Origin: Desulfocapsa sp. | Lineage (GTDB): Bacteria > Desulfobacterota > Desulfobulbia > Desulfobulbales > Desulfocapsaceae | Length of the DNA: 64,000 nucleotides | NCBI GenBank assembly: GCA_022712895.1 | Contig: JAFLJS010000023.1 | Location: 62,001-126,000 of the forward strand | Direction of reading: 5' to 3' | In this document: positions 37,245 to 53,758 of the stretch, piece by piece | Layout of the letters: each line of letters opens with the position of its first letter | How positions within the stretch are numbered: the stretch's first letter is position 1 | Notes under the pieces: model-generated | What the model was told of the DNA's origin: nothing | What the model saw: the letters and a program-made list of their open reading frames with translations, nothing else | Databases searched by the model: none | Program-made: the position numbers and the translations under genes

Positions 37245-37541
37245 ATGTCCCACACACAAATACAGAAACAGATGACAGATGATAAGAATATGACGTTGAA
37301 AAAACGTCTTAAGCAGATGATACTCACCGAGTGCGATGTGGACCATATCACAGTCGATGAGTTTGCTGATGATGTACCGATTTTTTCAGATGAAAGTCAA
37401 CTTGGGCTGGATTCGTTAGATGCGCTACAGATATCTGTGGGTTTACAAAAAGAATTTAATGTACGGCTGCCGGATTCAAAGTCCTTTCGGCGTCATGTGA
37501 CCACCATTAATGAACTAGCAGAATACATCCAATCGCAATAA
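37245..37541 (+). CDS. Acyl carrier protein of the resorcinol arm
   Basis: This 98-residue acidic protein has the phosphopantetheine motif SQLGLDSLDALQISVGL with Ser at about 58. The predicted helices fit an ACP. The start could be ATG 37245 or the later in-frame ATG 37272; the former leaves 4 bases after the permease stop. It probably carries the acyl chain for the DarB-like ketosynthase or the BtrH-like acyltransferase. A second ACP at 42292-42555 sits next to the FabF-like ketosynthase. Confidence 0.88.
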   Translation: MSHTQIQKQMTDDKNMTLKKRLKQMILTECDVDHITVDEFADDVPIFSDESQLGLDSLDALQISVGLQKEFNVRLPDSKSFRRHVTTINELAEYIQSQ

Positions 37542-37598: not shown

Positions 37599-38624
37599 TC
37601 ATTTCTGATTTCGCCAGCAAGTGGGATCAGCAGCCAGATAGTCACCGGTAAGCTGATAAGCAGCACCACGACAGCCATAACATTCATGGGCCTTATCACA
37701 ATCCCGACACTCTCCCTTGATCATCTCCCGGAAATTCTTTAGATCCTTTACGACCTGAGAATTTTTCAGAATATCACCAAGTGGATTATTTCGAATATTA
37801 TCCAGCGGGATAGTAACACCAACACAAGGCATAACCTCGCCAGAGGCTGTTACCAGGCAGGAGACCTGATGCCGCATGCATTTATTGCCAACCAGTGGTG
37901 GCTGCGGGTCCCATTGACGATGATATTTTTCCTGATCTATTCGCGACAATTCTGCAAAGAGTTCCTTCAACTGTATAGAATCAACCTGCAACCATAAATT
38001 ATCAAGGGCATTTGCCTGGGGCGTAAGCACTTCAAAGTAGGGCTCGATATTCTGATCACGGACCCACTGCCATAACTCCGGCAACTCTTCAAAGTTAGAC
38101 TGACAAATGATGGTGGACAACGCCAGAAACTTGTCCTCTGCCGGATAACCGGCATCTTTTAAATGTGTAAAAGCCTTCTGAATAATATCGTAGGCTCCTT
38201 TTCTACCCGCCAGGAGATCCTGAATTTCGGCTTTTCGGGAATTCAACTTTAAGATCACCCGAACATTCAGCTCAGCAAGTAATCCGGCAAGCTCTTCGTC
38301 CACACCGGTACCGTTGGTAAACATCTCAATTTCAAAACCCTGACTATTCAAGAATTGCAACATTTCCGGCAAATGAGGATAGATACTTGGCTCACCACCT
38401 AAAATAATGATCTTCCCGGCTCCCAAAGCCTTCGCCTGTAGGATAACATCTTTTATTTCATCCCTTGAAAGCTCACCCTTGCACTCTACCTTCTCAGGCA
38501 CATAACAGTACGAGCAACGGAAATTGCAAATACGACTGAACTCAATTTCCATGGACAGCAAGCGATCATCAGCCACTGCATCCTTAATTTCCTGCTCTGT
38601 AAATTCCAGATTATATAATTGCAT
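37599..38624 (-). CDS. Radical SAM/SPASM enzyme
   Basis: This 341-residue protein has the radical SAM cluster CNFRCSYC (about 33-40) and a C-terminal SPASM domain with eight or more cysteines (CMRHQVSCLVTASGEVMPC, CRDCDKAHECYGCRG and a final CW). SPASM enzymes hold extra Fe-S clusters and modify peptides, proteins or small molecules. No RiPP precursor gene is visible nearby. It is convergent with the ACP gene and follows the cobalamin-type radical SAM gene on the same strand, so a part in the cluster's chemistry is likely. The substrate is unknown. Confidence 0.85.
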   Translation of the reverse strand: MQLYNLEFTEQEIKDAVADDRLLSMEIEFSRICNFRCSYCYVPEKVECKGELSRDEIKDVILQAKALGAGKIIILGGEPSIYPHLPEMLQFLNSQGFEIEMFTNGTGVDEELAGLLAELNVRVILKLNSRKAEIQDLLAGRKGAYDIIQKAFTHLKDAGYPAEDKFLALSTIICQSNFEELPELWQWVRDQNIEPYFEVLTPQANALDNLWLQVDSIQLKELFAELSRIDQEKYHRQWDPQPPLVGNKCMRHQVSCLVTASGEVMPCVGVTIPLDNIRNNPLGDILKNSQVVKDLKNFREMIKGECRDCDKAHECYGCRGAAYQLTGDYLAADPTCWRNQK

Positions 38625-38630
38625 TTCTGA

Positions 38631-38709
38631 TCAGCACCGGTGATGAACGGTAAGCCGGCACTCAGCATAGTACCCCCTTCAGGGGTGAAATTGCCTTGGT
38701 GCTGACCCA
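38631..38709 (-). other. Structured intergenic RNA-like region
   Basis: GATCAGCACC (38631-38640) pairs with GGTGCTGACC near 38700-38709 to form a 10-base outer stem with one G-U pair. Inside are ACCCC-cttca-GGGGT and a possible AAGGCA/TGCC stem. It lies in the 148-base gap between the two radical SAM genes. It could be a structured leader of the SPASM gene or a processing site. It matches no riboswitch known to me. Confidence 0.35.
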
Positions 38710-38772
38710 ACCATTCAAGTTAATTCATCAATAAAAAATTCTTCCTTTTGTACAGCTCCTAAAAAAAACGCG

Positions 38773-40263
38773 CTAATATCCTTCAAGATCTTTAAAATAA
38801 TTCATTTTTTCCAAACGCTGTATGTCCTGGCGAAAGCGTCCTTTCCAACCAATTTTTTTCATAATCCGCCGATAACGCATTTTCAAAATCGGCTTCATCA
38901 GGTAAACCCAGATCCAAATCCAGAGTCTTCCCTGTTTGCGTACAGATGTTGGCGGATTCCACCAACCGAGTACCACTTGGCGCTGATACCAGAACTGGTA
39001 TTGCAACTCGTCACTACTCAAATGTTTCGTACGCACATTCGCCCACAGACCGTTGTACTTCTTTAGATCTGTCTTGTTGGTTATCAGACCATCTGCTAAA
39101 AGCTTGTCACGCATACCTGTTTTCGGGTAAGGAGTGATAATCTGACAATAGGCGGCATCCGCCTCAATTTCCTTAAAAAACTCGTAGTTTTCTTTGACGG
39201 AGTCAGCGTCATCATCGGGAAACCCGAAGATAAGCCCACCGATAACCATCATTCCATGCTTATGACAATTGGCGATAGCCTGTTGGGAAGCCTTAACGAT
39301 ATCACCCTTGCCGGCAATACTGAGATTCTTTTTTGATCCGTTTTCAATACCTAAAAAAACAGATTTAAAACCGGCCTGTGCCATTTTCTCAACCATGTCT
39401 TCATTGCTGGCCATGGTCATACAGTCTGCTTGTACGAACAGTTTCAGGTTTTTATAGTTTCTGGCAATTATGGCATCGCAAAGTTTTTTGACACGTGTTG
39501 GGTTCAGTACCATATTATCATCGGTAATGAAAATAGATTTCACTTTCAAATTATAATAAATATCATCAATATCTTCTATCACTCGGCTGATGGGATAGGC
39601 ACGAAACCTGCGTCCATACATATTTTTCATGGAACAGAAGTTACAGGATCTGGTACAGCCCCTCGAGGTCTCCAAGGCTTCGATCCCGGCATTCATCAGA
39701 TGGTAACCCCAGGTGAGACGGCGTTTATCGCGAATGGGGCGTTTGATGGTTTCAAGATCAAGGTTCTGAGCCCGATTATTATGACTAAATGATCCGTCAA
39801 CCTTATGGGAAAGAGATGGAATTGTTGCCAGGTCATCTCCGTCAGCAAGCGCATTTACCAGAAGCCTGCAAGATTCCTCCCCCTCACCACGAATTAGAAA
39901 ATCAACCCACTGCATATCAGCTGTCAGCCCTATTTCCTCAGCCATTAGAGTCGCATGATATCCACCGACAACAATCTTTGTATCCGGTGATAACTCCTTA
40001 ATCAGGTGAGCAATTTTAATGCAGGTATCGTATTGCCAGGCCATGGCCGACAATCCCACAAGATCGGGTTGAATCCTGGCCATCACTTTGGTGATATACT
40101 TTTTTACAGATCTCCGCTTACGGATCAGATCCACAAGAAAAACATCATGGTGCGAGTCGATATTTCCGCCAATGCTGGCGATACCAAGATTGGGGATATG
40201 CACCGCCGCTTCATGCACCAGTATCGGCACCACATCTGGCATGGAGATTAACAGTACTTTCAT
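38773..40263 (-). CDS. Cobalamin-binding-domain radical SAM enzyme (first copy)
   Basis: This 496-residue protein has an N-terminal B12-binding-type Rossmann domain (MKVLLISMPDVVPILVHEAA to about 150, with VGLSAMAWQYDTCIKIAH and IVVGGYHATLM). The radical SAM core begins at SRGCTRSCNFCSMKNMYG (cluster cysteines near 200-207) and contains GLIFGFPDDD. A basic C-terminal region (WIWIWVYLMKPILKMRYRRIM) may contact membranes. This class methylates unactivated carbons or rearranges carbon chains. Its start overlaps the acyltransferase stop (ATGA), so it belongs to the lipid arm. Confidence 0.87.
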   Translation of the reverse strand: MKVLLISMPDVVPILVHEAAVHIPNLGIASIGGNIDSHHDVFLVDLIRKRRSVKKYITKVMARIQPDLVGLSAMAWQYDTCIKIAHLIKELSPDTKIVVGGYHATLMAEEIGLTADMQWVDFLIRGEGEESCRLLVNALADGDDLATIPSLSHKVDGSFSHNNRAQNLDLETIKRPIRDKRRLTWGYHLMNAGIEALETSRGCTRSCNFCSMKNMYGRRFRAYPISRVIEDIDDIYYNLKVKSIFITDDNMVLNPTRVKKLCDAIIARNYKNLKLFVQADCMTMASNEDMVEKMAQAGFKSVFLGIENGSKKNLSIAGKGDIVKASQQAIANCHKHGMMVIGGLIFGFPDDDADSVKENYEFFKEIEADAAYCQIITPYPKTGMRDKLLADGLITNKTDLKKYNGLWANVRTKHLSSDELQYQFWYQRQVVLGWWNPPTSVRKQGRLWIWIWVYLMKPILKMRYRRIMKKIGWKGRFRQDIQRLEKMNYFKDLEGY

Positions 40264-41057
40264 GGCACCACCTGTTCTTTTTCGGGTTTCTGCTGCTCAA
40301 AAGCCTGTTGTACTTTTTCGTGAAGCATGGAAACAGTCATCTTCCCTTGTGTTGATTGTGCCGTAATTATTTCGAGTTGTTGCAAGGTGATACTGTTCTG
40401 CAAGGTAGTATTAAAGAAAAACTGGGCGGGCGTAAAGAGTTTATCCGTCCCACATAACCTGAGCACATGGATGGGACACTGATACATTCTGGCAATTTTA
40501 AACACACCTTTATGTAAGGGCCCCACACTTTCCCCACCACTTCTGGTACCTTCCGGAAAGACAAAAAGGTTGCCTCCACTTTCAAAAAATGATCCGATAT
40601 TTCCAATCTGCTCTATCATCTTACCTGCATATTTCCCTTCAGTGGACGATGGCAGATAGCCTGATACATCTAGAAGAAAACCAAAAACGGGAGCTGAAAA
40701 GAATTTTGACTTCACAATACTCTTACTCTGTGCCAAAAGTGAAATAAAGAGCAAGGGATCAAGGTAAGAGAGATGATTACAGACAATAATTGCCCCCCGA
40801 ATATCTTTTACTCGACGGTCAATCGACCAATGATGACTGGGGGCCAGCGTTCGCAAAAGAGCTAAAAAACCCTTAAAAAAACGATGATTCAAATATTGAA
40901 AAGACTTTTCCTTATTAGAAGAGAAAAAGTAACTGCCAAGATAAAAGAACGAGAAGAAAAACAGAAAGGCGAATATAAAATATCCCCAGCAGATAAACGT
41001 TACCGAGACATCGATAAACCACTGCAAGGGAGTTTTATTCCTGTTACTCCCGAACAT
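40260..41057 (-). CDS. PlsC-like lysophospholipid acyltransferase
   Basis: This 265-residue protein has an N-terminal membrane hairpin region (FICWGYFIFAFLFFFSFFYL), the catalytic variant NHLSYLDPLLF at about 92 and the acceptor motif FPEGTRSGGE at about 169. The usual NHxxxxD is kept. It would transfer an acyl group from an ACP or CoA to a lipid acceptor. PlsC-like and LpxL-like acyltransferases are both standard in aryl-polyene clusters, where they attach or handle the polyene chain. It overlaps the ketosynthase gene by 14 bases. Confidence 0.87.
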   Translation of the reverse strand: MFGSNRNKTPLQWFIDVSVTFICWGYFIFAFLFFFSFFYLGSYFFSSNKEKSFQYLNHRFFKGFLALLRTLAPSHHWSIDRRVKDIRGAIIVCNHLSYLDPLLFISLLAQSKSIVKSKFFSAPVFGFLLDVSGYLPSSTEGKYAGKMIEQIGNIGSFFESGGNLFVFPEGTRSGGESVGPLHKGVFKIARMYQCPIHVLRLCGTDKLFTPAQFFFNTTLQNSITLQQLEIITAQSTQGKMTVSMLHEKVQQAFEQQKPEKEQVVP

Positions 41058-42282
41058 CTCTAACTAGAAGGCAGGTGTTAACCCCGCCAAAGGCAAAGTT
41101 CTGAATGGCCGCTATCTTCGCTTTTGTTTCAGTCACTTGCCGCACATGATTAAGCATGGCGCAACGTTCATCCACGTTCTCAAGATTCAGGGTGGGGGCA
41201 ATAAAACCCTGCTCCATCATATACAAACTCAGGATAAGTTCAATACCACCACAGGTTCCCATGGTGTGCCCCATATAGCTTTTAAGGCCGGTTACATAAG
41301 GACGACCACCATACACGTTGTGGATTGCCTGTGACTCAATGACATCACCCATTTTGGTGGCTGTGGCGTGGGCACTGATAAAATCAACATCGGCAGCCTC
41401 TATTTCTGCATCCTGCAAGGCCAGACGCAAGGTGGTGGTAATACCGTTAAGATTTGGCAAAATAAGATCACCACCATTGTTATTACAGCCAAAACCAATC
41501 ACCTCGCCAATGATATTGGCTCCCCGCGCCTTTGCCGACTCATACTCTTCTAATAGAACGGCAGCCCCGCCCTCACCCACTACCAAGCCATCCCTATTCG
41601 TATCAAATGGGCGTGGCGTGCATTCAGGGGTATCATTATAGTCCACCGAGCAGGCAAGCAGATTGTCAAAAACTGCCACGGTGGTTGTATCGTACTCGTC
41701 TGCTCCTCCACAGATCATGGCATCCTGCATGCCGTACTTCACCATCTCATAACCAAAGCCAATGGATTGGCTGGAAGTTGTGCAGGCAGTGGATGAGGCG
41801 ATGACCCGTCCGGTAATACCAAACATACGGGTTATATTCACTGCGGTGGTGTGTACCATGGATTTTAAATAATCCACGGCTCCGATGGAGGAAAATTCAT
41901 TTTTCAGATTACTGAAGAATGTTTTGTAGATATTTCGCTGTATGGTTGGGCTGCCATGGGTTGAACTGAACGAAACACCCAGACGCCCGGATTGAATAAA
42001 CTCCTGGCTGAGGCCCGAATCTTCCAGTACATCCTTTGCCACTTGGCAGGCATAAAAGGAGACTGGACCCATGGTTTTTGTGTGTTTTCTGGCAAAACCG
42101 TAATCGATTTCATAATCCACAGTACCAAAGACTTTGGAGTGGAGATGGTCGGTGAGTAAACCATCGTCACGCAAAGGTTTTACTCCAGATCTTCCACTAC
42201 GCAGACTTTCTACGATATCACTCTTCCCGTATCCTATGGGAGTGATTGCTGAACAGGCAGTTATAACGACTCGTCTTGGCAT
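41044..42282 (-). CDS. FabF-like beta-ketoacyl-ACP synthase
   Basis: This 412-residue KAS II-type ketosynthase has the active-site cysteine in STACTTSSQSIGFGYEM (about 165), the first histidine in SAHATATKMGD and the second in YMGHTMGTCGG. It has the ordinary length of an iterative elongating ketosynthase and all three catalytic residues. In aryl-polyene and polyene-type pathways such an enzyme extends the chain with malonyl units. The preceding ACP gene is 9 bases away and the gene overlaps the PlsC-like acyltransferase gene. No separate chain-length factor is visible. Confidence 0.9.
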   Translation of the reverse strand: MPRRVVITACSAITPIGYGKSDIVESLRSGRSGVKPLRDDGLLTDHLHSKVFGTVDYEIDYGFARKHTKTMGPVSFYACQVAKDVLEDSGLSQEFIQSGRLGVSFSSTHGSPTIQRNIYKTFFSNLKNEFSSIGAVDYLKSMVHTTAVNITRMFGITGRVIASSTACTTSSQSIGFGYEMVKYGMQDAMICGGADEYDTTTVAVFDNLLACSVDYNDTPECTPRPFDTNRDGLVVGEGGAAVLLEEYESAKARGANIIGEVIGFGCNNNGGDLILPNLNGITTTLRLALQDAEIEAADVDFISAHATATKMGDVIESQAIHNVYGGRPYVTGLKSYMGHTMGTCGGIELILSLYMMEQGFIAPTLNLENVDERCAMLNHVRQVTETKAKIAAIQNFAFGGVNTCLLVRDVRE

Positions 42283-42291
42283 AAGAACAGT

Positions 42292-42555
42292 TTATCCGTT
42301 TTCCTTATTTGCTTGCATGGTCTGGACATAATCAAGGATATCATTAATCGTGCGGATAGACATCGCCTGCTCTTTTTCTTTTCTGGAAAGCTGAAAGCCG
42401 ATCATCTCTTCAATTTTGGCCAGCAGTTCTATGGCATCGATTGAATCAAAACCATGATCATCACGTAGATTATCAGTGAGTCCTGGTTCTTCAAACTCAA
42501 ATTCATCCACAAGAACTGCTACAATTTTCTGCTCTAATTCGTCTCTAGTCATCAT
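42292..42555 (-). CDS. Acyl carrier protein of the polyene arm
   Basis: This 87-residue acidic protein has the phosphopantetheine site DDHGFDSIDAIELL (Ser about 39), followed by an ACP helix III region (FQLSRKEKEQAMSIRTINDI). The start is ATG 42555 or the ATG directly after it; there is no obvious Shine-Dalgarno. It is first in the minus-strand group ACP-KS-acyltransferase-radical SAM. It should carry the growing chain for the FabF-like enzyme; its sequence is distinct from the ACP at 37245. Confidence 0.88.
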   Translation of the reverse strand: MMTRDELEQKIVAVLVDEFEFEEPGLTDNLRDDHGFDSIDAIELLAKIEEMIGFQLSRKEKEQAMSIRTINDILDYVQTMQANKENG

Positions 42556-42655
42556 ATGGGTAACTTTTAATGGAAAAGTAATATTCAGAATGTGTTAGCC
42601 CTGATAGTACACATTTTCCGTGGAAATGAAAAAGGATTTTTTGTAAGCCTTCACC

Positions 42656-42683
42656 TTGACAAACCAAAGCAGTAGGCTATCGT
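42656..42683 (+). promoter_or_regulatory. Possible sigma-70 promoter of sbcB
   Basis: TTGACA at 42656-42661 is a perfect -35 box. TATCGT at 42678-42683 is a fair -10 at 16 bases spacing. It lies about 40 bases before the sbcB ATG. Confidence 0.5.
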
Positions 42684-42721
42684 GAATAAAGGATTTTTTC
42701 CATCAACTCCGGAACAACACA

Positions 42722-44155
42722 ATGACAACCACTCTGTACTGGCATGATTATGAAACCTGGGGAGCTGACCCGAGGCGGGATCGCGCCGCACAATTTGCAG
42801 GCATCCGCACCGACACCGATCTGAAGATTATAGGCAAACCTCTAGTGCAGTACTGCAAACCGGCAACGGATATGCTGCCAAACCCTGAAGCCTGTTTAAT
42901 AACCGGAATAACACCGCAACAGGCCATGAAAGAAGGGGTATGTGAAGCAGAATTTATGGCAGAAATTCACCGGGAATTTATCCAGCCCGGCACCTGTGGC
43001 GTAGGTTATAACAGTCTACGCTTTGATGACGAATTCACCCGATATGGCTTCTACCGAAATTTTTTCGACCCCTACGCACGAGAGTGGAAAAATGGGAATT
43101 CCCGCTGGGATATCATTGATATGATACGACTCACCCATGCCTTACGCCCGGAAGGGATTGAATGGCCAATGCGGGAGGACGGTACGGTCAGCTTTCGTCT
43201 TGAAGAGTTGACGAAAGCAAATGGTATCAGCCACGAAGGGGCTCACGATGCACTGTCCGATGTACATGCAACCATCGACATGGCTCGGCTTGTGCGAAAA
43301 TGCCAGCCCAAGTTGTATGACTATCTCTTTGATCTTCGCAACAAACAAAAGGTCGCAGGACAACTCAACCTGCAAACGCGGGAAATGGTACTCCATGTCT
43401 CCTCAATGTATCCGGCAGCTCAGGGTTGTATTGCACCTGTGATCCCACTGGCACAGCACCCCACCAATAAAAACGGTATTATCGTTTTCGATCTGCGAAA
43501 TGATCCAGAGCCACTGCTAGACTTGAGTATTGAAGAAATTCAGGAACGATTATTCGTCAGTAATAAAGATCTACCGAAAGGTGAAGAACGCATCCCCTTA
43601 AAAACAGTGCATATCAACAAATGTCCGGTGATCGCCCCCATGGCGACCATGAATTCACAGAGAGCTGAAAAGTGGCAGATCGATATAGGGCTTGCCAAAA
43701 GATATGCTGACAAGTTACGTGCTAACTCGGATCTATCTAAAAAAATCCAGCAAGTCCACGAAGCGAATGAATTTCCTGCCATTGCTGACCCGGATCAAAA
43801 CCTCTACGGAGGTGGTTTTTTCTCAAACCTTGACCGACGGAAAATGGATGACCTCACAGACATGAGTCCAAAAGATCTCAGTAAAACCCGCACACAATTT
43901 GATGATCCTCGTATTCCTGAAATGTTGTTTCGGTATCGTGCCAGGAACTGGCCACAAAGCTTATCGCAGGAAGAGCGTATGCGCTGGGAAGATTTCCGGA
44001 GAAACAGAATTTCCAACCCGGAAGCTGACTGCGGAATCACACTCGCCTCCTATCAGAAGCAACTAGCTGAGCAGGTGACACATCCTAAAACAAACTCCCG
44101 TGACCGAGCAATCCTCTTAGGACTGGCTGACTGGCTTGAAATTATCAAGCTTTAG
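42722..44155 (+). CDS. sbcB: Exodeoxyribonuclease I
   Basis: This 477-residue protein has the DEDDh exonuclease motifs: HDYETWGADPRRDRAAQFAG (Asp and Glu of Exo I), SLRFDDEFTRYGFYRNFFDP (Exo II) and HEGAHDALSDVHATI (Exo III with His and Asp). It continues through the SH3-like and helical regions of ExoI (AQGCIAPVIPLAQHP). It degrades single-stranded DNA 3' to 5' in recombination and mismatch repair. It has no metabolic link to the surrounding lipid cluster and, with the next two plus-strand genes, interrupts it. Confidence 0.93.
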   Translation: MTTTLYWHDYETWGADPRRDRAAQFAGIRTDTDLKIIGKPLVQYCKPATDMLPNPEACLITGITPQQAMKEGVCEAEFMAEIHREFIQPGTCGVGYNSLRFDDEFTRYGFYRNFFDPYAREWKNGNSRWDIIDMIRLTHALRPEGIEWPMREDGTVSFRLEELTKANGISHEGAHDALSDVHATIDMARLVRKCQPKLYDYLFDLRNKQKVAGQLNLQTREMVLHVSSMYPAAQGCIAPVIPLAQHPTNKNGIIVFDLRNDPEPLLDLSIEEIQERLFVSNKDLPKGEERIPLKTVHINKCPVIAPMATMNSQRAEKWQIDIGLAKRYADKLRANSDLSKKIQQVHEANEFPAIADPDQNLYGGGFFSNLDRRKMDDLTDMSPKDLSKTRTQFDDPRIPEMLFRYRARNWPQSLSQEERMRWEDFRRNRISNPEADCGITLASYQKQLAEQVTHPKTNSRDRAILLGLADWLEIIKL

Positions 44156-44389
44156 CTGCTCCAATCAGTCTCAAAAACATGGTATGGGAAACACCCTCTA
44201 CGACAATATTATACCTGCGCATTCAGACAAATAAAAGCCACCTCCACATCCACACTACTTCTCACAACTGAATAATTTGTCGGCTTCGGCAAACCGCCTT
44301 GCCCGAGACGCCACATTGTGGTACTGTCGCATTGTATCCACTTGCCACAGGCGAGTTCACCACAACTCCACACAAAGAGGAATTGAACA

Positions 44390-44824
44390 ATGGCCACCAT
44401 TGAAGCAATTTGTATTAGTAAAAAAAAAGGCATGGTTAAAAAGGCGACCTCCGTTGCCACATTCAAGGCCGGTTTCGGTATAATTGATGATGCACATGCC
44501 GGGAAATGGCACCGTCAAGTATCGCTCCTTGCCGGGGAAAGTATCGATACAGTAAAAGAAAAGCTACCCACCCTTAAAGATGGTGCTTTTGCAGAAAATA
44601 TAATCACCAGAGATCTTGATCTAAGCTCAGTCAGCGTTGGAGATTCTTTACAGATCGGTACGGATATCATTCTTGAGATCACTCAGATTGGTAAAAAATG
44701 CCACAACGATGGATGTATAATAAAAAAGGCCACCGGTGACTGCATCATGCCCAAAGAAGGTATTTTTGCAAAAGTTATACAAGGTGGAACTGCGCAAGCA
44801 AACGACTCTATTGTACTGAATTAA
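44390..44824 (+). CDS. MOSC-domain protein
   Basis: This 144-residue protein is a stand-alone MOSC domain (GFGIIDDAHAGKWHRQVSLL, then AFAENIITRDLDLS and a conserved cysteine in KKCHNDGCIIKKATGDCIMP). MOSC domains handle sulfur or molybdenum cofactor chemistry. In anaerobes this short form is encoded near molybdopterin genes, but none are adjacent here. AGAGGA precedes the ATG. The 234-base leader contains three small hairpins. Confidence 0.88.
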   Translation: MATIEAICISKKKGMVKKATSVATFKAGFGIIDDAHAGKWHRQVSLLAGESIDTVKEKLPTLKDGAFAENIITRDLDLSSVSVGDSLQIGTDIILEITQIGKKCHNDGCIIKKATGDCIMPKEGIFAKVIQGGTAQANDSIVLN

Positions 44825-44850
44825 TCTTCATCGAAGCACCCCGCCTCAAC

Positions 44851-44876
44851 ACCACCTTGTGCCCCCACAAGGTGGT
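44851..44876. terminator. Perfect 11-base-pair hairpin after the MOSC gene
   Basis: ACCACCTTGTG (44851-44861) pairs perfectly with CACAAGGTGGT (44866-44876) around a CCCC loop. It lies 27 bases after the MOSC stop. No T-run follows directly, so it may be a weak terminator or mRNA-stabilising end. Confidence 0.55.
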
Positions 44877-45001
44877 AACATCCTCTCACATTAAGAAATA
44901 AAAAAAAAAGCATTTCATTTTTTTTCTTCCAGCACATATACTCATAAGAAATATACACTACAAGATGCTATCTGTTATCAACGTTAATGCAGGAGATTCT
45001 G

Positions 45002-47146
45002 ATGTTAAAAAGGTTATTACCACAAACTGTTAAAGCAAAACTCTTAGCAGCAATAGGGTTTTCATTCTTTATACTTATTTCAGCCACTGTATTATTGACC
45101 GCCAAGGAGAAGGAACAGACTTTTCTCCAAGCAGAACGACTCAACCTGACAGCAAAATTTAATGGCATTATAAAATCACTGGAAGATGAAGCGCGCACCG
45201 CAACTGCCATGGCTCTGGTGGTTGCTGCCATGCCCGATGTGCAAAACGCATTTGGCGATCAAGACCGGGAGCAATTAAGTGCTCTGACCCTCCCATTTTT
45301 CGAAAATGAAAGAAAACGTCTGTCTCTTGCTCAGTTTCAATTTCACCTTCCCCCGGCGACCTCATTTCTGCGCCTTCATAAACCAGAAAAATTTGGCGAT
45401 GACCTTTCCTCCATCCGGCAAACCGTTATTGAAGTGAACAGAAACAAAACAACTGTCTCTGGTATTGAGAAAGGACTTGCCGGCCTTGGAATCAGAGGAG
45501 TTGTCCCGGTTTACCAGAACAACAATCATATCGGCTCCGTCGAATTTGGAATCAAACTGAATGACAAACTGCTTATGCCCATGAAAAAAACCATGGGGGT
45601 AGATATTTCTGTTGTTGCCCCTGATGGACAAGGTTTTAAATACCTTGCCAAAACGCATTCGTTATCCATTCCGAAGAAAAGTTATCCCTGGCTCAATAAA
45701 ATGATGAAAGCCCAAGAGATTCATTTTAAACAGGTTCACAAAAACGGCAAACACTTAATGACAGTTTTCGGTCCCCTGAAGGACTACAACGGAAAAACTA
45801 TTGGTATTCTTGCCATACCTACAGATATTTCAGATACCATGGCCACAATTAAAAACACTATGTACAAGATGGCAGTTGGCGGCATCCTGGCATTGGCGAT
45901 AACCATGGTAGTGATGTATTTCCTGATGAATACTCTTATTCACTCTCCAATGAGAATCCTTGTTGAGAAATTCCAACAGGCTGGCCAGGGAGACCTGACG
46001 GTTTCAATGGATTTAAAAAGCCTGCACTGTGCAAAGTGCAGCGACATAGTACAGTGCAACAAGCCAGAATGTTCCAGCTACGGGAAAGACACCAAGTGTT
46101 GGGAACAGAGTGGGTCACTCTCCACAAACGTCGAATGTCCTAAAATACTGACAGGAGAATATGCAACCTGTCGTGAATGCAATGTATATCAAACTTCTGT
46201 CACCGACGAATTTGCAGAATTAAGTACAACCTTTAACTCTTTCGTTGCCAATATCCGACGTATGGTTCTTAGTCTTCAGGAAAGTGTAGAAGCTACTAGC
46301 TCAGCATCTTCAGAGTTGTCTGATTTGTCACAGGGAATGCAGGATGGCGCATCATCGGCTTCAGAACGCACACAAACAGTTGCGGCTGCAGCAGAGGAGA
46401 TGAGCGTTAACATGAACTCCGTAGCGGCTGCAAGTGAAGAGGCGTCCACCAATGTAAATATGGTAGCCACAGCAACTGAGGAGATGAGTGCCACTATTTC
46501 AGAGATTTCTGCAAATACCGATGAAGCAAGTAATATCGCAACCCGCGCAGTTGAACAGGCATCAAGCGCCAGCGCCAAGGTCGATATTCTTGGGGAAGCA
46601 GCAGTCAAAATCAGCAAAGTTACTGAAGTTATATCTGATATTTCCGCCCAGACAAATCTCCTTGCCCTGAATGCAACCATTGAGGCAGCCCGTGCCGGTG
46701 AAGCAGGTAAAGGTTTTGCAGTTGTTGCCAACGAGATTAAGGAGCTGGCCCGCCAGACTTCTGAAGCTACGCAACAGATCAAATCACAAATTGAAGGGAT
46801 ACAAAACTCAACGGATGAGACGGTAACTGAAATACGTGATATCACCGAAGTTATCAACAAGGTGAATGAAATTGTCGCCACCATTGCCGCAGCCATTGAA
46901 GAGCAAGCTGCAACCACCGGAGAGATTGGTGGCAACGTACAACAGGCAGCCGTTGGCATTTCTGAAGTGAATGAAAATGTTGCACAAACATCCAGTGTTG
47001 CCAGTGAGATTGCCGAGGATATCAATCAAATCAGCGTAATAACCGATGAGATGACAGAGAGTTCGGGGAAGGTAAACTTGAGTGCAGATTCCATGGCAGC
47101 CCTTGCCAGGACACTAGAAAAGATGGTGAACCGATTTAAGGTATAG
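45002..47146 (+). CDS. Methyl-accepting chemotaxis protein with Cys-rich insert
   Basis: The ATG at 45002 has AGGAG six bases upstream, so it is preferred over the ATG at 44987. The 714-residue receptor has membrane helix 1 ([19 protein letters not shown]), a periplasmic Cache-type sensor (about 35-285), helix 2 ([19 protein letters not shown]) and HAMP. A Cys-rich insert at about 342-396 ([36 protein letters not shown]) follows, then the signalling domain with [19 protein letters not shown]. The insert resembles the two-CW motif found in deltaproteobacterial receptors and may bind metal or sense redox. No terminal methylase-docking pentapeptide is present. Confidence 0.92.
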
Positions 47147-47152
47147 AGCAAG

Positions 47153-48022
47153 CTACTTCACAAAACGGTCGAAATGATACCATTCGAAGGGATGGTTCAA
47201 TAACTGCTGCTCCAGTAAATTTGCATATTGCTGAGCAGCAGTTTGTATTTGAGCATCCCTTTCTTTTCTGTTTGCGCATTGTATATATATTGGGTCGGCA
47301 AGACTAAAGCTGTAGCTGTTTTTCCCAGTTCTGAAACTGAAAAAACAGAAAATGGGTGCTCCTGAGACCAGTGCAAAAACATACGGCGCTTCTGGAACAA
47401 AGGCCTTTCCACCAAGAAAATTAACTTCTCTCTGTCGTTGATCAGGACGCCACACGATATCACCAGTCATGGAAATCAGGCCTCCATCCTGCAAAAACCG
47501 TATCCCTTCCACAGCATCAAAAGGTGAACCACCGTCTTTTTCAACGCCTATTATTTTCACCCCCGAATCCTGCAACTGCTCTTTCTGCATGCCCTCCACA
47601 CCTTCCTTTTCTTTTACACCCATATAGAGAAGAAGTTTTTGTGGTGTTTTCTGTTGCTGTAAAAGGTGGGCCGCTATCTCCCAGTTACCAAGATGCGACA
47701 TGAGTAATATTGCGCCCTTTTGCTGCACTACCGATTCAAGTTTCTCCCAACCTTTTGATTGAAAGAGTGTCTGCTGCCCATGGGCTGCCAGAAATCTGTC
47801 ATAGTGGATAGTTGTGAAGTTTTGATATTGGAGGAACGTACAGTAGTTGTGGTACAAAAAATTTTTGTGGGTATACAGCAGACGGTAAAAGCGACGGCTC
47901 TCTTTCACATTTTTCGAGAAGCAAAAATACCCTGTAGCAATGATCCGAGAGATAATCGAAAACAGCCACCCTCCGAATATTCCAGTCACTTTTTCAAGGA
48001 TAGTGTACCAGAAGTTTTTCAT
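47153..48022 (-). CDS. LpxL/HtrB-like lipid acyltransferase
   Basis: This 289-residue protein has a membrane-proximal N-terminus (LEKVTGIFGGWLFSIISRII) and the catalytic HLGNWE motif (about 112-117), then SMTGDIVWRPDQRQREVNFLG and a C-terminal region ending PFEWYHFDRF. The HxxxxE motif is that of lauroyl/myristoyl transferases of lipid A. In aryl-polyene clusters an acyltransferase of this family is always present and is thought to act on the polyene conjugate. It overlaps the glycosyltransferase gene by 4 bases. Confidence 0.88.
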   Translation of the reverse strand: MKNFWYTILEKVTGIFGGWLFSIISRIIATGYFCFSKNVKESRRFYRLLYTHKNFLYHNYCTFLQYQNFTTIHYDRFLAAHGQQTLFQSKGWEKLESVVQQKGAILLMSHLGNWEIAAHLLQQQKTPQKLLLYMGVKEKEGVEGMQKEQLQDSGVKIIGVEKDGGSPFDAVEGIRFLQDGGLISMTGDIVWRPDQRQREVNFLGGKAFVPEAPYVFALVSGAPIFCFFSFRTGKNSYSFSLADPIYIQCANRKERDAQIQTAAQQYANLLEQQLLNHPFEWYHFDRFVK

Positions 48023-48741
48023 CCCTTTTTAGAGAAAACCGAGAAAATACGCTTAAAAATAAGCCGACTGAATGTTGCGGAATTACGCAGAAAATCCAGC
48101 CAGGGGTGGAAATGGGAAATGCGTTCGGCTCCTTTTTGATACACTACCTGTACAGCAGTTTCCACGATGGGTATCTTCTTTTGATGCGCTTTTACCAAAA
48201 CCTCAACTTCATATTGAAAACGTCTGGCCTGCACATCAAGGGCTAACACTTCGGGAAGGGGGTAGAGCCTGAATCCTGATTGTGAGTCACTGACCATTGG
48301 CCCGCCTGATACCCACACCCAAAAATTAGAGAATTTCCTACCGACTTTTGAGGTCCAGGGAACGTGTGTTTCATCCATCCCTTGACGTTTTCCGATAATA
48401 ATTGCACGTTGATTTCCTTCTCGTGCCTGCAACAGATTTTCAATATCTTCCGGTTTATGCTGCCCATCAGCGTCAATGGTCACCACCCAGCCACAGCTTT
48501 TTTGCGCTGCCTGAAAACCGGTTAGCAAAGCAGCCCCTTTCCCCCTGTTTTGAGAATGGCTGAGCACAGTGATGTTCTCATTATCCATGGCCGCAAGCAT
48601 TTCAGCCGTTGCATCCGTTGATCCGTCATCAACCACAAATAGAGGATAGCCAAGGACAACAGTCTTATGCACCACATCACTGATTCGTGTTCCGTGGTTA
48701 TACACGGGAATCACAATGGCAACCTTGTTATTTTCTGGCAT
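48019..48741 (-). CDS. Family 2 glycosyltransferase
   Basis: The ATG at 48741 has GGAG eight bases upstream and gives 240 residues starting MPENNKVAIVIPVYNHGTRI. The GT-A motifs are FVVDDGSTDATAEML, GKGAALLTGF and TIDADGQHKPEDI (DxD), followed by GSQSGFRLYP-like DSQSGFRLYP. Such short enzymes, without membrane helices, resemble the glycosyltransferase/acyltransferase partners of aryl-polyene loci. It probably adds a sugar to a lipid head group. It overlaps the FakA-DegV gene by 14 bases. Confidence 0.88.
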   Translation of the reverse strand: MPENNKVAIVIPVYNHGTRISDVVHKTVVLGYPLFVVDDGSTDATAEMLAAMDNENITVLSHSQNRGKGAALLTGFQAAQKSCGWVVTIDADGQHKPEDIENLLQAREGNQRAIIIGKRQGMDETHVPWTSKVGRKFSNFWVWVSGGPMVSDSQSGFRLYPLPEVLALDVQARRFQYEVEVLVKAHQKKIPIVETAVQVVYQKGAERISHFHPWLDFLRNSATFSRLIFKRIFSVFSKKG

Positions 48742-50452
48742 AAGCGATGCTCCAGGTACCTGGTCCCATATGGACACCAGACGTAAGAGAGAGTGGAACG
48801 AGTTTGATTTCCGCATCAGGAAGCAGTTTTCGAATTGCTGGTTGCACCTTCTTTTGTAACCACATTTTATTGTCTGAATGTTGAAGTAAAACAAACAGTT
48901 TTTTAGAGTTTCCTTTTTGCTTTTCAAGTTTTTCGAGAGCAAAAACCAGCTGCCCCTTCCTATTACGTACAACACCCACCTTGCGCACACCCTCAAAACC
49001 CGGGCTGATCACAGGTTTCATATGCAAAAGATCAGCAAAGAAGGCCTTGGTTTTTGTAACCCGGCCTCCTGCCACCAGATATTTTAGTTCATCTATAAAA
49101 ACATACTCTTTGGCCTGTTTACTTAACTCTCTTGCCAAAGCAACAACGTCTCCTGCCGCGGCCCCTGTTTCAGCAAGTCTGGCCGTTAACAGTGCTATAA
49201 CAGCCAGACGACCGGATGCGGCACCACTATCAAGTATCTCAAACCTGTCCCCAACTGTACTTTTCTCCTGCCAGTTTTTGGCGGTGGAATAATTCCCTGT
49301 GAAAGCTGATCCTGTGCAGACATACAACACCTTATCATACTGCGCACAAGCAGCCTGATAATGTAACTCACGTTCATTGCTTGACGCCTGAGCTGTACTT
49401 ACTTTGGCTCCTTTTAGCATTTGAGAGTACAGATTTTCTGGCAGATACAGACTCTCCGGCAAGGCCTGATCCTCTGTTACAATATAACTGTCCAGTAGAA
49501 TAATTCCATGCTGCTGGGCAAGATCAAGCGGAATAGAACCTGCCGCATCTGACATAATCCTGATACGATTACCAGCGAATGTTTTCTCATTTGAGGAATG
49601 CAGCTGAGGATCAATAGCCGCATTTGACCAGCTAACAACAGTACCCAGGGTAGCTAACTGCTCTCGTAAATAAGTCGGATTTTTTGTATGCAAATGAACT
49701 TTTGTTTCGGTTTCCCCGGGAACAAGTACAACACTGTCGCTAAACATTGCAATTTCATCCGACAGCGCAGCGTCCTCTTTATCGCTGGCTAGAACAACTT
49801 CAACACAATACTCACCACTTTTTTCTGGCTGGTAAGAAGCTGCCAGCTGCAGTCTGCTGCCGAAGAGTTCCATCACCGGAGAAGCGGTGGCGTTACCATT
49901 AATATATTGCTGAAAAAAACCATCGAAGAAGATAAACATCCCCAAAGCACCAGAATCCACGACCCCTGCTTCCTCCAAGACGGACAGGCGATTCGCCGTA
50001 TTTGCAACAGCATCGCTCAGTTGTTGACGTACAGCTGAAAAGGAGATCTGTTTTTTTTCTTCATCTTGCAAACATATTACCAGAGCATCAAAGATATCCA
50101 GCATCGTGCCCGATATGGGTTTGTGTATTGCCCGGTACGCCTGCTGCCGTCCCTGCATAGCCTGCTCTACTAGTTCACCAATATCATGATTTAAAAATGG
50201 AGCAAGAAAGGCAGCTGCGATATTCCCAGAATTTCCAAGAGCCGTTGTCGCAAGGTTTTGCACACTGGCAACCATATCGGAAGCACAATCCCGCAGGGGA
50301 CTGAGGCTAATCCGAAGATTTGTTCCGGTATCTCCATCAGCCACAGGAAAGACGTTTATGGCATCTAGCAGATCAGCCCACACAACCAGATTTTCATAGC
50401 CGGCAATACAGGACTGTGCAAAAAGCAGAGGATTGGATTTACTTTCTATCAA
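48728..50452 (-). CDS. FakA-DegV fusion, probable one-piece fatty-acid kinase
   Basis: The N-terminal part (1-190) is a DAK2/DhaL-type kinase domain with INVFPVADGDTGTNLRIS (nucleotide/metal loop). The middle part (about 200-285) carries the FakA signature GETETKVHLHTKNP. The C-terminal part (about 290-574) is a complete DegV/FakB fatty-acid-binding fold (SDAAGSIPLDLA, STAQASSNE, LKYLVAGGRVTKTKAF, HMGPGTWSIAY). In Gram-positive bacteria separate FakA and FakB phosphorylate fatty acids to acyl-phosphate; here both are in one chain. The start codon appears to be TTG at 50452. Its place between the AMP-ligase and glycosyltransferase genes suggests activation of a free acyl chain of the cluster. 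Confidence 0.87.
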   Translation of the reverse strand: MIESKSNPLLFAQSCIAGYENLVVWADLLDAINVFPVADGDTGTNLRISLSPLRDCASDMVASVQNLATTALGNSGNIAAAFLAPFLNHDIGELVEQAMQGRQQAYRAIHKPISGTMLDIFDALVICLQDEEKKQISFSAVRQQLSDAVANTANRLSVLEEAGVVDSGALGMFIFFDGFFQQYINGNATASPVMELFGSRLQLAASYQPEKSGEYCVEVVLASDKEDAALSDEIAMFSDSVVLVPGETETKVHLHTKNPTYLREQLATLGTVVSWSNAAIDPQLHSSNEKTFAGNRIRIMSDAAGSIPLDLAQQHGIILLDSYIVTEDQALPESLYLPENLYSQMLKGAKVSTAQASSNERELHYQAACAQYDKVLYVCTGSAFTGNYSTAKNWQEKSTVGDRFEILDSGAASGRLAVIALLTARLAETGAAAGDVVALARELSKQAKEYVFIDELKYLVAGGRVTKTKAFFADLLHMKPVISPGFEGVRKVGVVRNRKGQLVFALEKLEKQKGNSKKLFVLLQHSDNKMWLQKKVQPAIRKLLPDAEIKLVPLSLTSGVHMGPGTWSIAYARK

Positions 50453-50458
50453 CGTCGA

Positions 50459-51808
50459 TTAGGAGAGCAGTTGAATGATCGCATCCCGGTCATATTTGCC
50501 ATTTGGCCGCATGGGGATTTGAGATGCAAGTCTGATTATTTTAGGCATGGCAGCGGGCTCAAGGCTGACGGACATGACAAGTTTAATGGGGACAAGATCA
50601 AGATTTTCCTGATCGCTGCGGATAAGCACTGCTATACGATTTCCCCGCCCGGTACTATCTTTTAATGGCAATACCACACATTCTGCCACGCCCGTTTGTT
50701 GTTGCAGCAGATCTCGTATTTCATCAAGATCCACCCTCTCTCCTGCAACCTTGGTAATTGCATCCGCTCGGCCATGCAGCGAAAAGGTGTCCTTACCCTG
50801 TAACCGAACACGGTCTCCTGAAAGAAACCAATTGTCCTTTTCCCGTGGCACATCAGGAGACAGGAATGGCGAACGAATAGTTAAACGCTGCTCTCGTATC
50901 TGCCATTCAATGGGAGGCAAGGGAGTAAAGAACTCTTCTCCTGCCGCTCTGTTTCTTGCTGCTAGCCCTCCCGTTTCCGTTGAACCGTAGATTTCAACGA
51001 TCTCTGCCCTGTTCCCACTGCAAAACCCCGTATTATCTTCTTCCGGTAGCATTCCTGCAGAAGAAAAGGCCAAGCGCAAAGACGAGTGCAAACTGCGCCC
51101 CTGCAAGGCACGATAATGTGCGGGAACACTGGACAGCACAGTTACAGCATGTTTTTCAACACACTCTGCAATCTCGGCCGGGAAAAACGGGCTTTCAGCC
51201 ACAATTCTGGCATTTGCCACCAGCGGGATCACCACAGAAAACAGAAACCCGTAGATATGATACGGAGTGATGGTGGCCAAAATACAATCCCTGTCACCTA
51301 TTGCATAACGAGAAGCCATAAATTGCGCTTCACCAAAAATATTGGCGATACTTTTAGACCATATTTTTGCAGCACCAGTAGAACCACCAGTAAAAAGTTT
51401 TACTAACTCCGCATTGGGATTTACTGTCTGTTTGGACAATGATGCTGGGCAAATCTGCGCAAGATCTTGTGGATGAATGCATGTTGTTCCATGGGACAGC
51501 TCCCGGTCCACATCAACGATTGCAGTAGTGAATCCTGTGAGATCCTGCATCTGCCTAAGCGCTCGTGCAGAAAAGCTGTGAGGAAGTGTTAAGACCCTGC
51601 CGGAGGCGACGGCTGCAAGCAGTGCGGCAGCTATTACATCACGTCCCTCTGCTGCCAGACAAATGGGAACATTTGGTTCTAAGGTAAAAAAACTTGCGCA
51701 AAACCGGGCAGCCAGATCGTGAACATTTTTTCTTGTTACGGATCCTGCAATAAACTCCTGTCTGGCGTCAAAAGGTTCCTGAAAAAGAGTTGCAAACAAG
51801 GCGTTCAT
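50459..51808 (-). CDS. AMP-dependent acyl/aryl ligase
   Basis: The start at 51808 follows the previous stop after one base (TGA-T-ATG) and gives 449 residues. ANL-family motifs are present: VKLFTGGSTGAAKIWSKS (phosphate loop, about 132), EIYGSTETGGLA (about 275), WFLSGDRVRL and GRADAITKVAGERVDLDEI. This short form is typical of the AMP-ligases of aryl-polyene clusters, which load an aromatic or acyl starter on an ACP. The substrate pocket cannot be read from sequence alone. It is followed closely by the FakA-DegV gene. Confidence 0.88.
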   Translation of the reverse strand: MNALFATLFQEPFDARQEFIAGSVTRKNVHDLAARFCASFFTLEPNVPICLAAEGRDVIAAALLAAVASGRVLTLPHSFSARALRQMQDLTGFTTAIVDVDRELSHGTTCIHPQDLAQICPASLSKQTVNPNAELVKLFTGGSTGAAKIWSKSIANIFGEAQFMASRYAIGDRDCILATITPYHIYGFLFSVVIPLVANARIVAESPFFPAEIAECVEKHAVTVLSSVPAHYRALQGRSLHSSLRLAFSSAGMLPEEDNTGFCSGNRAEIVEIYGSTETGGLAARNRAAGEEFFTPLPPIEWQIREQRLTIRSPFLSPDVPREKDNWFLSGDRVRLQGKDTFSLHGRADAITKVAGERVDLDEIRDLLQQQTGVAECVVLPLKDSTGRGNRIAVLIRSDQENLDLVPIKLVMSVSLEPAAMPKIIRLASQIPMRPNGKYDRDAIIQLLS

Positions 51809-51809
51809 A

Positions 51810-53072
51810 TCAGCCAATATTCCTGCCAAATGCCTGCCCGGCAAGGCTTCTGTCTCGTGGTCTGAAACTCCCATCTTCCATCTCTTTACCCACAACCTGC
51901 CTGAAGAGTTTAAACATCTTCATTTCCTGGGACTCATCACCATAAAATCTACTCCAGGCAAGATCGAGAAGTTCCTGGAGCCGCTCAGGACTCATCTGTT
52001 TGGGCTGATAGACGACTTTATCGGCGGAAAAATCGTTCCAATCGGTGGAGAGCATTCGATTTTGTGCCACCATATCTTTATAGGCTTTGGTGTGGGGGAA
52101 TGGGGTTAGCACTGTAAATTCTGCCAGATCCAGCTCAATATCAAGCAGAAAGTCAATGAGTTCCAGGATAAATTCTTCACTGTGATTATCAAGTCCAAGG
52201 AGAATGGTTCCTTCAACTCCAATGCCATGATCATGATAGCGCTTAATACGTTCACGAATATAATCTGAAGTATCAAATACGGCCTGATACACGTACCAGG
52301 CACCCGCCTGTGCCGCCAGATCCAAAATCTCCGGTTTGTCTTCTATGGGGTGAGAACACCATTTCTTTTTCAGCGGAATCATCTCTCTAAAGAGATCCTT
52401 CTCCCACTGACTATCCTGCGCCAGCGAATTATCCACAATAAACATTCGATTATTATCAATGCCTGCCATTTCTGCCACCGCCTTGTCAATGGGCCGTGGC
52501 CTGAAATCACGGCCACCCAGATAAGAAACTGCGCAAGGGTAGCAGTTAAAGCGACACCCCCGTGAGGCATGAACCAGATCAACCATCTGCACACCTTTAT
52601 AGTTGTACAGTTCACGGTTCAGGATATCTCTTCGAGCCGGCCCCACCAGTGCAATATCGGGCCTGTTATTCATATAGTCGTAACGGGGTTTAAGCTCTCC
52701 CTTCCTGAAATCATCAAGAACAGTTTCCATGCGGCTTTCAGCTTCACCTAAAAAAACAGAATCCGCGTGTTCCATCGTTTCTTCAGCATGGAGCATGGTT
52801 GCAATGCCCCCAAAAATCACTTTAACGCCTTTTTTTCGATACCTATCCGCAATCTCCCATCCTCTTTTTACTTGAACAGTGAGCATCATGGAAATTCCGA
52901 CGATATCAACATCTTCATCAAAGTCGATATCTTCGAGATTTTCATCGGTGAAAACTATATCCACATAATCTGGCAGAGCTGCAGCAAAAACGACAGGGCC
53001 GTGAGGTGGCAGATGAAACTCAGTCTGGCGAAACAGTTTTGCCCATTTGGGATAGATCAGTTTAAATTTCAT
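51810..53072 (-). CDS. Cobalamin-binding-domain radical SAM enzyme (second copy)
   Basis: This 420-residue protein has an N-terminal B12-type Rossmann region (VVFAAALPDYVDIVFTDENL; DIVGISMMLTVQVKRGWEIA; KVIFGGIATMLHAEE). The radical SAM cluster is CRFNCYPC at about 166-173, and GLDNHSEEFI lies further on. It resembles the hopanoid/bacteriochlorophyll-type group of cobalamin radical SAM methylases or cyclases. It is clearly different from the enzyme at 38773. It lies between the lipoprotein and AMP-ligase genes, so it probably modifies the acyl chain or the aromatic head. Confidence 0.87.
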   Translation of the reverse strand: MKFKLIYPKWAKLFRQTEFHLPPHGPVVFAAALPDYVDIVFTDENLEDIDFDEDVDIVGISMMLTVQVKRGWEIADRYRKKGVKVIFGGIATMLHAEETMEHADSVFLGEAESRMETVLDDFRKGELKPRYDYMNNRPDIALVGPARRDILNRELYNYKGVQMVDLVHASRGCRFNCYPCAVSYLGGRDFRPRPIDKAVAEMAGIDNNRMFIVDNSLAQDSQWEKDLFREMIPLKKKWCSHPIEDKPEILDLAAQAGAWYVYQAVFDTSDYIRERIKRYHDHGIGVEGTILLGLDNHSEEFILELIDFLLDIELDLAEFTVLTPFPHTKAYKDMVAQNRMLSTDWNDFSADKVVYQPKQMSPERLQELLDLAWSRFYGDESQEMKMFKLFRQVVGKEMEDGSFRPRDRSLAGQAFGRNIG

Positions 53073-53095: not shown

Positions 53096-53758
53096 TTATA
53101 GTTTTTCTGCACTTAACAGCTGCAGTTTTAACGTGTAACCCTGCGTACCAGAGGTTGTCAGTTGTATCCGTTCGGGAATGTTTTCCCCTGTCACTTCTTT
53201 GTAATTAAGAGCAGTGATTGATTGCTGGAGCATACCTTGTGTATCGTACAGGTTAATTCTATTCCATCCCTGCTGAGCCATCACCACATCTGTCACCTGA
53301 TTATTGTCAGCGGTATACCGACAGATCAGTTCTCCTTCCGTATTTTCGGCAAGAGTTCTCTCTGCATATTCGGGTTCCACAAACAGCGTTTGGACATCTC
53401 GCATCAACCCTCTCGCAAATCCTGTTTTGTCAAAGGGTGGCATGGCTCTTCGCACAATAACACGGCCGCTTCCTTCCTGTTCTGCCTCAAAGAGGACAAA
53501 ACCTTCAACACCCATCAGTACCGTTTTCAGTTTTTTTCCTTGCAGCACAGTGACTCCAACGAGCGTTGCACCATAACCGCTGTCCATTACGAAACTGACG
53601 GAATGCACAAACTGCCAGTTTCCCTGAACAAAAGCATATTCACAGATCGCCTCTTTTGTATCAACAAATGAAACTCTCTGCAACTGAGGTACAGATGGAA
53701 CTTGAGCCACCGAGCAGGATACAAACAGGCAACAGACAAAGAGGCAGGCAATTCTCAT
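53096..53758 (-). CDS. DUF3261-like outer-membrane lipoprotein
   Basis: This 220-residue protein has a lipoprotein leader (LFVCCLFVSC, acylated Cys about 15) and a beta-rich body (VMDSGYGATLVGVTVLQGKK; GFVLFEAEQEGSGRVIVRRA). It resembles the DUF3261 lipoproteins that accompany LolA in aryl-polyene clusters. The pair is thought to move the polyene lipid to the outer membrane. The start overlaps the LolA stop by 4 bases. The assignment rests on size, leader and position more than on motifs. Confidence 0.65.
   Translation of the reverse strand: MRIACLFVCCLFVSCSVAQVPSVPQLQRVSFVDTKEAICEYAFVQGNWQFVHSVSFVMDSGYGATLVGVTVLQGKKLKTVLMGVEGFVLFEAEQEGSGRVIVRRAMPPFDKTGFARGLMRDVQTLFVEPEYAERTLAENTEGELICRYTADNNQVTDVVMAQQGWNRINLYDTQGMLQQSITALNYKEVTGENIPERIQLTTSGTQGYTLKLQLLSAEKL

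Follow-up and report, generated by a model that had tools for sequence, protein, structure and literature searches.

The window analysed here is a stretch of 64 kb (positions 62,001 to 126,000) from the 186-kb contig JAFLJS010000023.1 of Desulfocapsa sp., whose genome comprises 3.68 Mb in 75 contigs. It contains a lipid-type gene cluster in which two different B12-binding radical S-adenosylmethionine (SAM) proteins (rSAM1 and rSAM2) and one SPASM radical SAM protein are found with a CrtI-like oxidoreductase; these genes had been singled out by the original prediction, which identified and positioned them correctly. The cluster was interpreted, with a probability of about 0.65, as one half, the first, of an aryl-polyene (APE) pathway whose other half is located on another contig. 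Homology and synteny make it very probable that the pathway class is APE-type, while operon position, conservation and co-occurrence suggest that the radical SAM enzymes are likely to act within it. The closest named rSAM1 loci belonged to Desulfocapsa metagenome-assembled genomes (MAGs), at 90 and 85% identity, and the host is a Desulfocapsa-like anaerobe of the Desulfobulbales, presumably a strict one. Family calls were based on Pfam gathering cut-offs, NCBIfam curated cut-offs, sequence matches in the Protein Data Bank (PDB) and predicted structures.

One indication of the pathway class was the ketosynthase (KS) called KS2, whose best PDB matches were 7F27 (AbApeR) and 4EWG (PpApeR) at 332 bits each, the top-scoring E. 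coli KAS I/FabB entry reaching 239. The available part of PMC8358021 describes 7F27 as the Acinetobacter baumannii ApeR and 4EWG as one from Paraburkholderia phymatum, and attributes aryl stacking to AbApeR Tyr135 and Phe202, the Y135A change causing a nearly threefold loss. In an alignment of 62 rows, comprising the window and 61 loci that aligned over 380 residues or more at above 60% identity, the equivalent KS2 residues Tyr138 and Phe205 were invariant throughout, together with the catalytic Cys and one catalytic His. The KS-chain length factor (KS-CLF) component of an APE cluster was found at the second locus as a KS-KS fusion; its top four PDB matches were 9S5H, 7F28 (AbApeO-ApeC), a FabF and 6QSP (ApeO-ApeC of X. 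doucetiae), and PF13723 was present in its orthologue from a related genome, G010. An ApeI-type dehydratase, ketoreductase, AMP ligase, LolA and MMPL exporter were all present, with the ApeI-like protein (31.8 bits, cut-off 28.5) and the MMPL exporter (58.2, cut-off 20.5) encoded on the other contig.

The second locus was found on that contig (C8) using the KS-KS protein that follows the core cluster in G010. In addition to the KS-KS fusion and ApeI-like dehydratase, it encoded rSAM3, two short proteins, rSAM4 and rSAM5 (Pfam Radical_SAM 19.5 and 28.9 bits, both below 29.5), two further KSs, a thioesterase (TIGR00051 over cut-off), a GT25-like protein, a polysaccharide deacetylase, a PS-DH-like dehydratase (a family seen in the Desulforhopalus homologue) and the MMPL-type exporter, which was fused to a class I methyltransferase domain (L121:9924-12983). 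One contig of G010 carried the complete core and most of the second set one after the other (L034, L123); about 7 kb separated the two in G009 (L022, L124). The genes for ApeI, rSAM4, rSAM5, KS, KS and thioesterase came immediately after the core in Desulforhopalus IMCC35007 (L066) and Desulfogranum japonicum (L086); neither of these 21-kb loci contained the KS-KS fusion or rSAM3. Since the halves adjoin in relatives, the window and C8 loci were treated as a single pathway that has six radical SAM proteins in total.

Gene order was compared across rSAM1 loci, which were the best 80 of 212 stretches encoding relatives; many were short or clipped, and nearly all were titled Desulfobulbales or Desulfobacterales. 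A PlsC-type (AGPAT) acyltransferase was present in 76, KS2 in 70, the SPASM protein in 58, the acyl carrier protein (ACP) ACP2 in 57, the LpxL-type acyltransferase in 43, the GT2 glycosyltransferase in 40, FakAB in 35, the CrtI-like protein in 27, rSAM2 in 25 and DarB in 15. The commonest order was FabZ-FabG-LolA-h220-rSAM2-AMP ligase-FakAB-GT2-LpxL-ACP2, followed by KS2-AGPAT-rSAM1-SPASM-CrtI-PEMT. Where a locus had room, the AGPAT gene was directly 5' of rSAM1 in 68 of 74 cases, and the SPASM gene directly 3' in 53 of 69; with neighbours fixed in this way, the clustering of radical SAM genes is no chance arrangement. Relative to the usual order, the window had two insertions: the dar operon (31792-37541), and a segment at 42722-47146 that sits between ACP2 and the LpxL-type gene, the same operon being unbroken in relatives such as G010 and G023. 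The fusion of FakA-like and FakB-like domains within a Gram-negative polyene operon (48728-50452) suggests that the released chain is activated as an acyl phosphate. A MAG titled Spirochaetes (L116) carried an rSAM1 relative (60% identical), and all the usual neighbours were missing from its 21 kb.

Co-occurrence was assessed in one repeated draw of 145 genomes from the same order, at least 90% complete. rSAM1 was found in 49 (51 before two at approximately 370 bits were dropped), rSAM2 in 59 with another 23 carrying its sister clade (84 before two below 220 bits were dropped), the rSAM3 clade in 51 (all low-clade genomes, 7 of them below the cut-off of 360, weaker matches being excluded) and DarB in 65. 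The 49 rSAM1 genomes shared rSAM2 in 47 cases, rSAM3 in 41 and DarB in 42.

The radical SAM proteins of the window were well supported as such. The SPASM protein (Radical_SAM 91.3 bits, SPASM 32.7) and rSAM1 (Radical_SAM 63.5, B12-binding 59.9) exceeded Pfam gathering in both domains, and CxxxCxxC was kept in all eight aligned rows of each. rSAM2 passed for B12-binding (37.4, cut-off 32.1) and fell below for Radical_SAM (24.7 against 29.5); this weak call was taken as genuine because its CxxxCxxC cysteines (173, 177 and 180) were invariant in 22 of 22 orthologues and its predicted model (pLDDT 73, medium) matched the two-domain B12 radical SAM enzymes AprD4, MgmA and TsrM, at low TM-scores. 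Among the matches listed, no NCBIfam cut-off was reached by any of the three, nor by the CrtI-like protein, for which the best was CrtD (99.6 against 549.7). A hopanoid or bacteriochlorophyll family was rejected for rSAM1 (HpnR 121/650, BchE 155/481, HpnJ 126/578 bits), and tRNA, heme or cofactor families (MiaB-like, AhbD, BzaD and similar models) were likewise rejected, all being below cut-off. Membership of both B12 enzymes in tRNA or cofactor families was the outcome that the original prediction had regarded as fatal to itself; checked by models, it did not appear, and methylation therefore stays among the candidate reactions. C-methylation is the best-known activity of B12 radical SAM enzymes. 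The best PDB matches were OxsB for rSAM1 and AprD4 for rSAM2, neither of which is known to be a plain C-methylase. The exact reactions are a guess: anaerobic C-methylation and tailoring of starter or chain would be the preferred roles, methylation itself being somewhat less likely than not. A maximum likelihood tree of 64 rows separated rSAM1, rSAM2 with its sister clade, rSAM3 with a high-scoring TIGR04072 clade, and a DarB-linked protein (stems at least 100/98); having long branches, it was used for the separation of these four clades only, relations between them being unsure, while BchE and hopanoid enzymes were judged by curated models outside the tree.

The dar operon indicates what the polyene may be joined to. 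DarB, the DarG-family protein and DarH all exceeded NCBIfam cut-offs and were accompanied by ACP and ABC transporter genes, the composition by which a dar operon is recognised. The putative DarA reached no model and gave a weak flavodoxin match; it was identified by its position and by its distribution, since the genomes with an orthologue, 22 of 145, coincided with those that have this type of DarB. Gene order was that of Azoarcus darA-B-D-E-F-I-C, minus two small Azoarcus genes (Table 1 of PMC3949708). In the available part of the same source, the APE genes for arcuflavin occupy two separate loci and work together with dar genes. Because the dar operon interrupts an APE-type cluster, a flexirubin/arcuflavin-like pigment is expected, and a dialkylresorcinol (DAR) ester is the likely product predicted for this host.

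The position directly 5' of darB was occupied in one of two ways. Across the 65 DarB genomes it held darA in 22 and a B12 radical SAM gene in 43, and never both; neighbours were read in 64 loci and in the C83 part of G011, whose darB spans two contigs (L136-L200, L204). The 43 DarB-linked radical SAM proteins formed one family, 49–100% identical to one member, in which B12-binding and Radical_SAM were above gathering (three of three tested) and the nearest model was HpnR (162 and 171 bits against 650, two of two tested); a structure model with pLDDT 61.5 was too poor for its matches to be used. Genome-wide, darA scored above 350 bits in 22 genomes (next best 70) and the DarB-linked protein above 400 bits in 43 (next best 226), and these lists matched the two DarB groups; G112, without DarB, retains a 68-residue piece. 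DarA-type DarBs, to which that of the window belongs, were a single clade (100/99) requiring one change on the DarB tree, which argues for one old switch followed by inheritance or whole-operon transfer; many independent exchanges were rejected on the same ground. The exchange suggests an oxygen-independent route to make or modify resorcinol lipids. Searches of the open-licence PMC literature listed no paper on it, nor any that connects radical SAM enzymes with aryl polyenes, flexirubins or dialkylresorcinols.

Several observations weigh against a split APE pathway with a DAR-linked product. The product is a prediction from the genes. Aromatic ammonia-lyase (PF00221) had no match genome-wide, chorismatase/UbiC not having been searched for; because this starter supply was not found, the cluster is termed APE-type rather than a proven APE cluster, and the head group may be non-aryl. 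One or more of the SPASM and short radical SAM enzymes may supply the starter. The flexirubin equivalogs were all missed (FlxB 285/340, LolA2_flexi 90.5/125, flexirubin_DarG 123/170), for which reason the cluster is not called flexirubin. DarB was absent from 7 of the 49 rSAM1 genomes, so that DAR is not obligatory. The co-occurrence p-values (Fisher p < 1e-12) ignore shared descent. Lastly, rSAM3 exceeded the cut-off of TIGR04072, the ladderane-named model (394.8 against 360), albeit in the lower-scoring of two sub-clades.

This last result bears on the proposal, taken from anammox bacteria, that the radical SAM enzymes cyclise the polyene chain to give a ladderane-like or other ring-containing lipid. 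The original prediction was correct that CrtI-like, B12 radical SAM, KS, dehydratase and ACP genes together reproduce the reported anammox ladderane-candidate set, and the available part of that 2009 study also describes synteny between Kuenenia and Desulfotalea psychrophila that includes radical SAM and phytoene-desaturase-like proteins (PMC2649909). What did not hold was the family of the enzymes: rSAM1 and rSAM2 scored 112 and 44 bits against 360 for TIGR04072 and formed separate clades, ring closure found no support in the data, and the ApeR-type KS and dar operon indicate a linear polyene ester. In PMC2649909, D. psychrophila was found to make no ladderanes. The high-scoring TIGR04072 clade (26 genomes, 561–626 bits) shared 19 genomes with the rSAM2 sister clade (23 genomes) and none of 49 with rSAM1. 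It is nonetheless found beside rSAM2 homologues in architecturally similar clusters: three loci (L201-L203) had ACP, GT2, acyltransferase and KS-CLF homologues, and two of them also SPASM and KS2. These are possibly the closest non-anammox relatives of ladderane-candidate clusters, and their likeness makes the rSAM2-rSAM3 pair part of a wider, radical-SAM-rich polyene-type family, in which the ladderane-named branch is a relative of the rSAM3 branch and distinct from it. A ladderane-like or other ring-containing product is quite improbable here.

Polyunsaturated fatty acids (PUFA) or C31 hydrocarbons, as Rattray et al. considered for D. psychrophila, are an unlikely product too. That organism contains C31:8 and C31:9 polyunsaturated hydrocarbons with no known PUFA synthase, according to the available part of PMC2649909. 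The present genome also lacks PfaA over cut-off: its 2713-residue multidomain polyketide synthase (L205, G000:C11) resembles PfaA only partly and was excluded by that model (321 against 1010 bits). An ApeR-type KS, KS-CLF, LolA/MMPL export and a dar operon would not be needed for a hydrocarbon, and Ole head-to-head genes account for such hydrocarbons elsewhere. It is barely credible that the radical SAM proteins work in a different pathway, that of tRNA, heme or a cofactor, and lie here by accident; the model nearest to the SPASM protein was the heme synthase AhbD at 120 bits, but its cut-off is 500, MiaB/RimO-type models gave approximately 20 bits, and the fixed AGPAT and SPASM neighbours are not the pattern of rSAM1 orthologues situated mostly away from KS2-ACP-AGPAT genes.

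Under the preferred APE-type reading, the AMP ligase would load a starter acid onto ACP, and KS2, the KS-CLF fusion and two more second-locus KSs would add malonyl units. FabG and the FabZ, ApeI and PS-DH dehydratases would leave one double bond per round, giving a conjugated polyene acid that thioesterase, FakAB and acyltransferases could pass on. DarB and DarA would form the dialkylresorcinol, DarH-type or PlsC-type acyltransferases might join it to the polyene, and LolA and the MMPL exporter would carry the pigment outward. The radical SAM enzymes may tailor chain or starter without oxygen, the B12 enzymes being most likely C-methylases or related radical rearrangers, and the SPASM and short proteins contributing to starter formation or desaturation. 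A broader proposal, put forward tentatively and at somewhat less than even odds, is that sulfate-reducer-type anaerobes follow the flexirubin/arcuflavin route independently of oxygen, with as many as six radical SAM enzymes building or tailoring polyene and starter, that a B12 radical SAM enzyme takes the place of DarA on the resorcinol side in many relatives, and that part of the non-anammox 'ladderane' clusters obtained by genome mining encode this pigment.

Features of the cluster are given in the table. Just before it in window coordinates (16276-26558 and 26641-28621) lie capsular polysaccharide genes and genes for DnaJ-domain, HTH_38 (IS30-like) and Fic proteins.

Table. Predicted genes of the polyene cluster and dar operon, with window positions
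Feature	Position	Strand	Evidence or remark
PEMT/ICMT-like membrane methyltransferase	29720-30280	-	PF04191 33 bits, over cut-off; adjoins CrtI-like gene in relatives; ends core operon in genus
CrtI/CrtD-like flavin oxidoreductase, putative chain or ring desaturase	30277-31755	-	in 27/80 rSAM1 loci
DarA, putative flavodoxin-like DAR aromatase	31792-32787	+	directly 5' of darB; name after PMC3949708 Table 1
DarB/StlD-type ketosynthase-cyclase	32794-33945	+	NF005293 592.8 bits, cut-off 450
DarG-family protein, dar operon	33948-34367	+	NF053536 166 bits, cut-off 70
DarH BtrH-type acyltransferase, candidate for polyene-DAR ester formation	34360-35355	+	NF053550 491, cut-off 300
ABC transporter ATPase, dar operon	35352-36086	+	position as in Azoarcus dar genes (PMC3949708 Table 1)
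ABC transporter permease, dar operon	36080-37240	+	Pfam
ACP, dar operon, DarC position	37245-37541	+	PF00550
SPASM radical SAM protein	37599-38624	-	Radical_SAM and SPASM, Pfam
rSAM1, B12-binding radical SAM	38773-40263	-	Pfam; below all NCBIfam cut-offs among matches listed
PlsC-type (AGPAT) acyltransferase	40260-41057	-	Pfam; directly 5' of rSAM1 in 68/74 loci
KS2, ApeR-type aryl-polyene ketosynthase	41044-42282	-	PDB matches, conserved Tyr138/Phe205
ACP2, polyene pathway	42292-42555	-	Pfam
Exonuclease I, MOSC protein, dCache chemotaxis receptor (insertion)	42722-47146		
LpxL-type acyltransferase	47153-48022	-	Pfam
GT2 glycosyltransferase	48019-48744	-	open reading frame as listed starts 48996; inner start suggested by relatives
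FakA-FakB fusion (DAK2 and DegV), fatty-acid-kinase-like	48728-50452	-	profile matches
AMP-forming acyl ligase (starter activation)	50459-51895	-	5' end overlaps rSAM2; real start probably more internal
rSAM2, divergent B12-binding radical SAM	51810-53072	-	among best conserved proteins of pathway
h220, small secreted or lipoprotein-like protein	53096-53758	-	no family; position conserved
LolA-type carrier	53755-54330	-	PF03548; nearest NCBIfam LolA2_flexi 90.5, cut-off 125
FabG/FlxB-like ketoreductase	54324-55061	-	FlxB 285 (<340); FabG PRK05653.1-5 283.8 (>273)
FabZ-like dehydratase, weak match	55068-55499	-	profile match

Comparison with known systems places the cluster among several partial likenesses. 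rSAM1 has the two-domain B12 radical SAM architecture in common with HpnR, BchE and HpnJ, while scoring far below their cut-offs. The arcuflavin system of Azoarcus BH72 is alike in its split APE loci and in a dar operon of the same gene order (PMC3949708); Azoarcus has a XanB2-type chorismatase and a halogenase, and Table 1 of that source contains no radical SAM or CrtI-like entry. Flexirubin clusters of Chitinophaga and Flavobacterium begin with a tyrosine ammonia-lyase (PMC3992019), the family (PF00221) absent from the genome here, and resemble the present cluster in combining polyene with DAR and in LolA, exporter, glycosyltransferase, acyltransferase and short-chain dehydrogenase/reductase homologues. 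'Ladderane' clusters of unknown function are reported in Desulfobacterota MAGs in the available part of PMC9902471; the interpretation offered here would give such sulfate-reducer clusters, so far annotated without a product, a testable product class, and would split ladderane-family (rSAM3-type) from non-family (rSAM1 and rSAM2) enzymes. rSAM1 and rSAM2, lying outside TIGR04072, differ in this respect from the anammox ladderane-candidate cluster, a comparison that rests on its published description (PMC2649909, in part), whereas the anammox and D. psychrophila clusters are alike with that of the window in their KS paralogues, radical SAM proteins, phytoene-desaturase-like protein, acyl ligase and membrane protein.

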